Of a DNA stretch of 64,000 nt, positions 6,438 to 35,911 are shown in pieces; within the stretch, counting starts at the first letter, position 1, and each line of letters begins with the position of its first letter. The stretch spans positions 3,602,501 through 3,666,500 of the forward strand of contig WPIO01000026.1 in assembly GCA_009760855.2 (NCBI GenBank), read 5' to 3'. This DNA is from Cristatella mucedo (taxonomy: Eukaryota > Bryozoa > Phylactolaemata > Cristatellidae). The position numbers and the translations under genes were made by a program. A model generated the notes under the pieces. It ran no database searches. It was given only the letters and a program-made list of their open reading frames with translations, and was not told where the DNA came from.

Positions 6438-6513
6438 ATGGATCTTATCGCTTCGCTGGCAGTGGTCGCGCTACTTATCAAGTTGGCCACTTTCGTCGAA
6501 GGCGGCTCTTACG
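6438..6513 (+). CDS. Gene 1 exon 1: start codon and signal peptide
   Basis: ATG in a good context (ggccATGG) opens a 25-residue stretch, MDLIASLAVVALLIKLATF then VEGGSY, with the short polar start and hydrophobic core of a signal peptide. It ends in phase 1 at TAC G|gtacga. The donor is only moderate. However, gene 2 has an exon of exactly the same length (76 nt), the same MD start, the same tyrosine last codon and the same phase at 42955-43030, which supports both the start and the donor. The reading frame stays open to 6713 past the donor, so an unspliced read-through could be mistaken for a gene. Confidence 0.72.

Positions 6514-35911: not shown

Follow-up and report, generated by a model that had tools for sequence, protein, structure and literature searches.

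Two tandem genes of the bryozoan Cristatella mucedo code for putative single-pass receptors with a RHIM-like motif in the cytoplasmic tail

Gene structure at the locus

The window analyzed here, a stretch of 64,000 nucleotides of the Cristatella mucedo genome, harbors a gene of ten exons (gene A) and the beginning of a second, related gene (gene B), both on the + strand. The coding chain of gene A extends from 6438 to 35911 and joins, without a stop ahead of the terminal one, into 600 aa; all of its introns are of the GT...AG type, and the exon end phases (1,0,1,1,1,1,1,1,1) are mutually compatible. This confirms the ten exons, consistent phases, and 600 residues proposed by a previous model-based annotation (hereafter the sequence-only reading), with exon 9 having been independently recovered by an exon scan that was not trained on it.

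Exon 1 (6438-6513, with the phase-1 donor GTACGA), which was read directly and lacks support from the paralogue, supplies the start codon and a hydrophobic signal peptide (MDLIASLAVVALLIKLATFVEGG). The following 6 exons encode 3 domains, each spanning two exons (2+3, 4+5, 6+7). Domain 1 is encoded by exon 2 (8336-8469, donor GTAAGT; 61% identity to the gene B exon, E=1e-12) and exon 3 (12801-13026, entered in phase 0 and left in phase 1, with the segment LDWYKNG; 36% identity to the gene B exon, E=2e-6), domain 2 by exon 4 (15283-15438, with a weak acceptor scoring 1.0; 48% identity to the gene B exon, E=8e-11) and exon 5 (22317-22475; 44% identity to the gene B exon, E=5e-7), and domain 3 by exon 6 (24016-24177; 42% identity to the gene B exon, E=2e-8) and exon 7 (26197-26355; 54% identity over 46 aa to a gene B exon past the window end, E=2e-6). 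Exon 8 (29078-29200) carries the transmembrane segment with an RRRR stop-transfer sequence, and the membrane exon of gene B occupies the same place in the order, with weak similarity (41% over 29 aa, E=0.07). The cytoplasmic part is encoded by exon 9 (34113-34262), a linker of 50 aa, and exon 10 (35454-35911), a tail of 152 aa that ends in the stop.

The exon scan combined splice-site strength, with weights set from general knowledge, and a codon model, and covered phase 1-1 exons in the whole window with TE stretches masked. On the + strand, 7 candidates scored at least 16, each corresponding to an exon of one of the two genes and 6 of the 7 being training exons, while no candidate on the - strand scored at least 16 and the best one there had a score of 10.3. 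Exon 9, which was not part of the training, scored 21.8, within the range of the accepted exons (18.5 to 29.3). Because it thus scores as a true exon in a scan not trained on it, a nine-exon chain of 550 aa was dropped; a wider version of exon 9 (34038-34262) was likewise rejected, with a score of 13.4 compared to 21.8 for 34113-34262. The scan missed exon 4 of gene A as well as exons 4 and 6 of gene B, exons of other phases lie outside its design, and its candidates at 45413 and 59572 have 3' ends differing from those listed below for gene B.

Leave-one-out codon scores were modest, with the true frame being the best of three in 10 of 12 training exons and failures in the membrane exon of gene A and exon 5 of gene B. 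For exon 10, the codon score was 0.085 in frame compared to -0.094 and -0.179 out of frame, which is the top score among open frames of at least 120 aa without a training exon and lies above 0.022, the 99th percentile of the background (2103 windows, maximum 0.091). Downstream of the gene A stop, AATAAA is absent up to 41456 (35912-41456, approximately 5.5 kb), so that the 3' end of gene A is not established; ATTAAA occurs first at 38561 and then at 40584 and 40976.

Gene B was found by exon-by-exon comparison within the window, at 45-60 kb. With 100 kb examined on either side, it was seen to begin in the window and to extend approximately 19 kb past the window end. Comparison with gene A, for exon 2 in the protein frame, placed exon 2 at 45413-45546, exon 3 at 47387-47618, exon 4 at 59053-59214, exon 5 at 59572-59730 (3' end alternatively 59736), and exon 6 at 60021-60191, followed by exon 7 at 65314-65472 in window coordinates past the window end. 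The membrane exon (exon 8, 67530-67658 in window coordinates) holds the same place in the order as that of gene A, and the tail exon (83022-83434, likewise past the window end) was matched by tblastn with the gene A tail; it has VQLGNSNTM at 83207. A counterpart of exon 9 was not found, the best candidate (10.2) not being accepted, and neither was one of exon 1, for which there was no systematic search. Without exon 1, the gene B chain is open over 519 residues, and its exon order and phases are as in gene A.

The ectodomains of A and B share 40-46% identity. In three stretches, dN was 0.48-0.50 and dS 1.2-2.0, where the high dS values are approximate and exons 3 and 4 of gene B are a few bases short; because dN lies below dS, the ectodomains appear to be under constraint, as under purifying selection. 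The tail exons align at 30% over 164 columns by tblastn (E=4e-7; 263.8 kb searched, composition correction off). Furthermore, both genes lie on the + strand and have, in identical order, a membrane exon and a phase-matched tail exon after it. Genes A and B are therefore best read as tandem paralogues that code for putative type I single-pass receptors, a signal peptide being seen in A alone.

A third copy upstream was considered and rejected, as the similarity of an exon 3-like fragment at -8250 (E=0.017) and an exon 2-like fragment at -64394 is lost within approximately 25 residues. The former, which precedes the first base of the window by approximately 8.25 kb, reads LLRLDWYKDGAPVKVN and possibly represents a decayed exon copy; its place is near 3594250 of C188, on which the window spans 3602501-3666500 in the 572-Mb assembly.

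Ectodomain, membrane pass, and fold

The predicted gene A protein begins with a signal peptide, continues with 3 small extracellular domains, and crosses the membrane once, at a span followed by RRRR; two exons supply its tail of approximately 200 residues. As read from the sequence, it has the features of a type I single-pass protein, namely a signal peptide, one span, and a basic stop-transfer. Hydrophobic segments followed by basic residues were found 3 times over both strands: the first is that of exon 8 of gene A, the second coincides with a CTG repeat, and the third is on the - strand. The membrane span of gene B carries QRRR. The assignment of gene A as a gene for a single-pass cell-surface receptor, made by the sequence-only reading, is thereby supported at the level of predicted topology, and the gene has a spliced paralogue.

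The same reading had labeled the ectodomain Ig/FN3, and this label found no profile support. Pfam gave no Ig or FN3 match for gene A or B at E≤10, and a weak match of a three-sequence profile to an Ig domain of MUC18 in the PDB (E=0.016) was gone with a four-sequence profile, which found nothing there; for FN3, we see no reason. The domain 1 profile matched Dscam at E=0.21, ranked behind an unrelated fibre protein at 0.13. Domains 2 and 3 of gene A are mutually related (29-31% identity), and domain 1 showed no kinship to this pair when their profiles were compared. On visual inspection, the segments LDWYKNG of domain 1 and G.PRP..Y..NC..V.C.A.N.G of domain 2 resemble Ig domains, with the usual first cysteine being absent. 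We describe the three domains of A and B as having an Ig-like look. A PGRP ectodomain was not matched in Pfam for either gene. For the tail, AlphaFold2 on the single sequence predicted no fold (mean pLDDT 29.7), a result that is silent on amyloid.

A RHIM-like motif in both tails

Within the tail exon of gene A, a RHIM-like motif (VIHANTVQIGRGNTMINN) lies at 35624-35677 on the + strand, its core VQIG starting at 35642, and reads VQIGRGNTM at residue 512. Gene B has FISNTNVQLGNSNTMIINN, with VQLGNSNTMI at the place that matches the gene A motif. That the tail carries VQIG..N.M flanked by hydrophobic residues and asparagines, as had been noted, is seen here and extends to the paralogue, both tails having hydrophobic residues ahead of the core and Asn after it (sequence around the motif: A, VFVIHANTVQIGRGNTMINN; B, LIFISNTNVQLGNSNTMIINN).

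Between the two tails, 42 of 114 aligned residues are identical, and all core positions of (V/I)-Q-(I/L)-G-x-x-N-x-M are kept (6/6); the MAFFT alignment places a one-residue gap immediately ahead of the core residues. The excess of core conservation over the rest of the tail is nominal (P=0.03), and at 7/10 in a 10-residue window, the core ranks level with two other tail blocks. Loss of the VQIG..N.M residues in orthologues had been named by the sequence-only reading as evidence that would speak against it; no orthologue was found, and the sole paralogue keeps the residues, such that the motif is conserved in 1 of 1 paralogues.

The other two conserved blocks, LE.D(..)CN.PA and SP.LEV.FD, lie at 35534-35560 and 35840-35866 in gene A and at 83039-83071 and 83399-83425 in gene B. 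In gene A, a cysteine cluster, NNCCCSDSC (35672-35698), adjoins the motif on its 3' side, and gene B has NNGNTDH in its stead. Two further gene A segments, YIHV (35756-35767) and DVSPLL (35834-35851), have what we take to be the look of sorting signals.

The core tetrad (V/I)-Q-(V/I/L/C)-G, which PMC9444067 quotes for the RHIM, is present as VQIG in A and VQLG in B. PMC7885112 gives the core as G-(I,V)-Q-(I,V)-G, including a leading Gly; at that position, A has T, B has N, and a piece of human TRIF used for comparison has H.

Among Pfam families, RHIM (PF12721, gathering cut-off 20 bits) was the best for gene A, below that cut-off. It scored 9.5 bits against the 550-aa chain, for which it was the sole matching family (E=0.99), 12.6 bits against the 217-aa tail, and 13.5 bits against the tail exon, where a metallothionein family came next (E=0.47); short pieces scored from 15.7 to 18.2 bits (18.2 in 21 aa, 16.8 in 35 aa). 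For gene B, there was no match. The profile search suggested by the sequence-only reading thus gave no score above the cut-off, gene A reaching at most 18.2 of 20 bits and gene B none. In the same test at approximately equal length, RIPK3 scored 43 bits, a RIPK1 piece 24.8, and the TRIF piece 17.7, so that a recognized RHIM can also fall under the cut-off. Because of the score below the cut-off and the missing leading glycine, we refer to the motif as RHIM-like and do not count it among the members of the RHIM family.

In the window, the motif occurs once over six frames, compared to 0.083 occurrences expected from Markov sequences and 0.01 expected from shuffles for its DNA pattern. For an average protein composition, the chance expectation is approximately 8 motifs per 9 million residues, or 1.3e-4 per 151-residue tail. 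Given those approximately 8 chance occurrences, the motif alone is weak evidence, and its retention in the predicted tail of paralogue B is the real test. For a genome-wide count, we used the degenerate DNA pattern [VIM]Q(hydrophobic)G..N.M on both strands of the 572-Mb genome, which yielded 38 matches (15+23) compared to 13 with the pattern reversed. The tails of A and B, 48 kb apart, account for two of the 38, and their open frames measure 174 and 172 aa. The remaining 36 comprise 29 matches with frames of 13-84 aa, where a short frame could still be a small exon, and 7 in which a stop interrupts the motif. Since the pattern demands a terminal Met, other RHIMs may escape the count.

Homology searches

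No relatives of the 550-aa chain of gene A (without exon 9) or of its tail exon were found among 5.8 billion proteins. Animals are present in this database: for a reverse transcriptase from the window, 5801 of the 7989 candidates that were scored reached E≤1e-20. As a database thus shown to hold animals yielded no relatives, the receptor appears to be lineage-specific or fast-evolving.

Within the genome, exon 3 of gene A retrieved A, B (E=0.013), and one weak match (E=0.52). Whole-genome searches with tail A (4 candidates scored) or tail B (6) returned the query and weak matches, the other tail being absent from both. Therefore, the kinship of the two tails rests on the local tblastn, gene order, and alignment. 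The genome search is insensitive at the divergence of A and B; it indicates that there is no large family of close copies, and equally distant ones could escape it. The weak matches of tail A lie on C2 and C133 (E 0.17 and 0.18); those of tail B on C210 and C666 (E 0.05 and 0.08) were rejected, as they lack the RHIM-like core. A tail match on the viral contig L001 (37% over 52 columns), which has phage-like ORFs and had been chosen by one shared 8-mer, FDLHNDSD, was dismissed as chance.

A search of the 572-Mb genome with the RHIM family gave no match at E≤0.001, and none of 14 control genomes gave matches either, so that this negative carries no weight. The search for partners by the strict DNA pattern with its terminal Met revealed no long frame besides A and B.

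Discussion

RIPK1, RIPK3, ZBP1, and TRIF are cytosolic proteins. With these mammalian RHIM proteins (PF12721), A and B share the core tetrad and the hydrophobic residues before it, and with the RIPK1 chains also N and M downstream of the tetrad. However, A and B lack a kinase, TIR, or Z-domain, neither reaches the profile cut-off, and there is no Gly before the core. We assume that the motif of A and B is closer to the mammalian core tetrad than the Drosophila motif is. In Drosophila, according to PMC7885112, PGRP-LC, PGRP-LE, and Imd are antibacterial immunity proteins with RHIM-like amyloid motifs, and PGRP-LC is a membrane receptor (PMC2715215). These proteins have the RHIM-like motif in common with A and B, and PGRP-LC is likewise a membrane receptor, whereas A and B are devoid of a PGRP domain according to Pfam, and no Imd was identified. 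The fungal PP motif and bacterial BASS3, which have a related G-phi-Q-phi-G centre, are described as RHIM homologues and, in the sources cited here, in the context of NLR/effector systems, whereas the motif of A and B stands in predicted single-pass receptors (PMC7889193, PMC7885112, PMC12261475). Furthermore, a review of signaling amyloids asks whether the RHIM is the sole metazoan one, and the RHIM apparently works in varied architectures (PMC7889193).

The best reading of the pair is that receptors with a RHIM-like tail represent a new architecture for a known signaling principle. Among the literature titles listed by our searches, there was no Ig-like single-pass receptor with a RHIM, which is not proof of absence. 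Invertebrate Ig-superfamily adhesion and allorecognition receptors (e.g., Hydractinia Alr) are, like the predicted A and B proteins, single-pass proteins with several small beta-type domains and tandem copies, and their tails carry other motifs than those of A and B. Moreover, A and B differ from them in having no Ig or FN3 profile match.

We consider it rather probable that A and B are tandem type I receptors with RHIM-like tails that signal through an amyloid seed induced by clustering. The combination of an ectodomain, one membrane pass, a tail without predicted fold, and a conserved RHIM-like core is what makes induced-proximity signaling fit. A ligand, or a partner that sits on another cell, would cluster the ectodomains and so bring the tails of A and B into proximity; the VQ(I/L)G..NTMI segments could then stack into a short cross-beta (amyloid) seed. 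Such a seed would recruit a cytosolic RHIM-type adaptor or kinase, and the recruited RHIM partner might give rise to an NF-kB-like or death signalosome, much like PGRP-LC recruits Imd in flies. At the sequence level, our analysis shows the gene structure, the topology, and the retention of the motif between the diverged tails; beyond that, for the stacking into amyloid as well as for ligand, partner, and output, the scheme is inferred. With regard to the interpretation given by the sequence-only reading, a receptor gene and a RHIM-like tail motif retained in the paralogue have withstood the analysis, and FN3 domains and a RHIM profile above the cut-off have not. A more specific version can be put forward tentatively: A and B could be a lineage-specific pair of contact receptors, in which clustering of the Ig-like ectodomains aligns the tails and thereby seeds a RHIM polymer in the cytosol that would act in defence, in telling self from non-self, or in cell death.

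The most serious rival is that the tail motif is of another kind. Here, receptor and tail would be real, and VQ(I/L)G..NTMI would be a different conserved tail motif (docking or trafficking) that resembles the RHIM by chance, which we regard as unlikely. It would agree with the Pfam RHIM score under the cut-off in A and the silence of this profile in B, with the two further tail blocks that are conserved to an equal degree, and with the expectation that the context-free core occurs several times per proteome. However, the core is the sole one of the three blocks that fits a known motif, at 6/6 core positions in both genes, it is preceded by hydrophobic residues and followed by Asn in A and B alike, and the TRIF piece scores about equally in the same Pfam test.

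We deem it improbable that the tail exon is an alternative last exon or belongs to another gene, so that the main transcript would encode a receptor without the motif. Such a separation is compatible with the length of the last introns (4.9 kb and 1.2 kb for gene A, 15.4 kb for gene B), with the missing AATAAA close to the stop, and with an internal donor site (35855, score 5.7). However, the same coincidence would be needed in A and B, since in each of them a phase-matched tail exon comes after the membrane exon, with identical order and strand. That frames of a pseudogene or of transposons have been read as a receptor is very improbable; the introns do contain L2-like reverse transcriptase copies and simple repeats, but the ten exons of gene A are open until the terminal stop, the exon phases of A and B agree, and dN is lower than dS between them.

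If A and B are indeed receptors that signal through RHIM-like tails, amyloid signaling can start directly at the cell surface via an ectodomain unrelated to PGRPs, and a second, independent receptor design for amyloid signaling would exist besides PGRP-LC. A coupling of surface contact to RHIM-type cell-death signaling would be unusual. The paralogue pair provides two natural sequences for direct testing.

Repeats and mobile elements around the genes

A non-LTR reverse transcriptase with a 632-aa open frame lies at 9184-11082 (+), its best relative matching at 69% over 66% of the frame; the named ones among the 120 relatives listed are mostly from fish, and the element would presumably be called L2-like. 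Fragments of this element are found within introns of both genes and include those at 19153-19695, 29630-30269, 52475-53224, 53117-54129 (-), and 56866-57550 (-). An open frame at 27101-27499 (-) looks, by eye, like what we take to be a transposase-derived GTF2I-repeat/hAT-type protein. Furthermore, CTG repeats are present in gene A introns at 14420-14610, 24247-24333, and 26110-26155, two of them within approximately 100 bases of exons 6 and 7.
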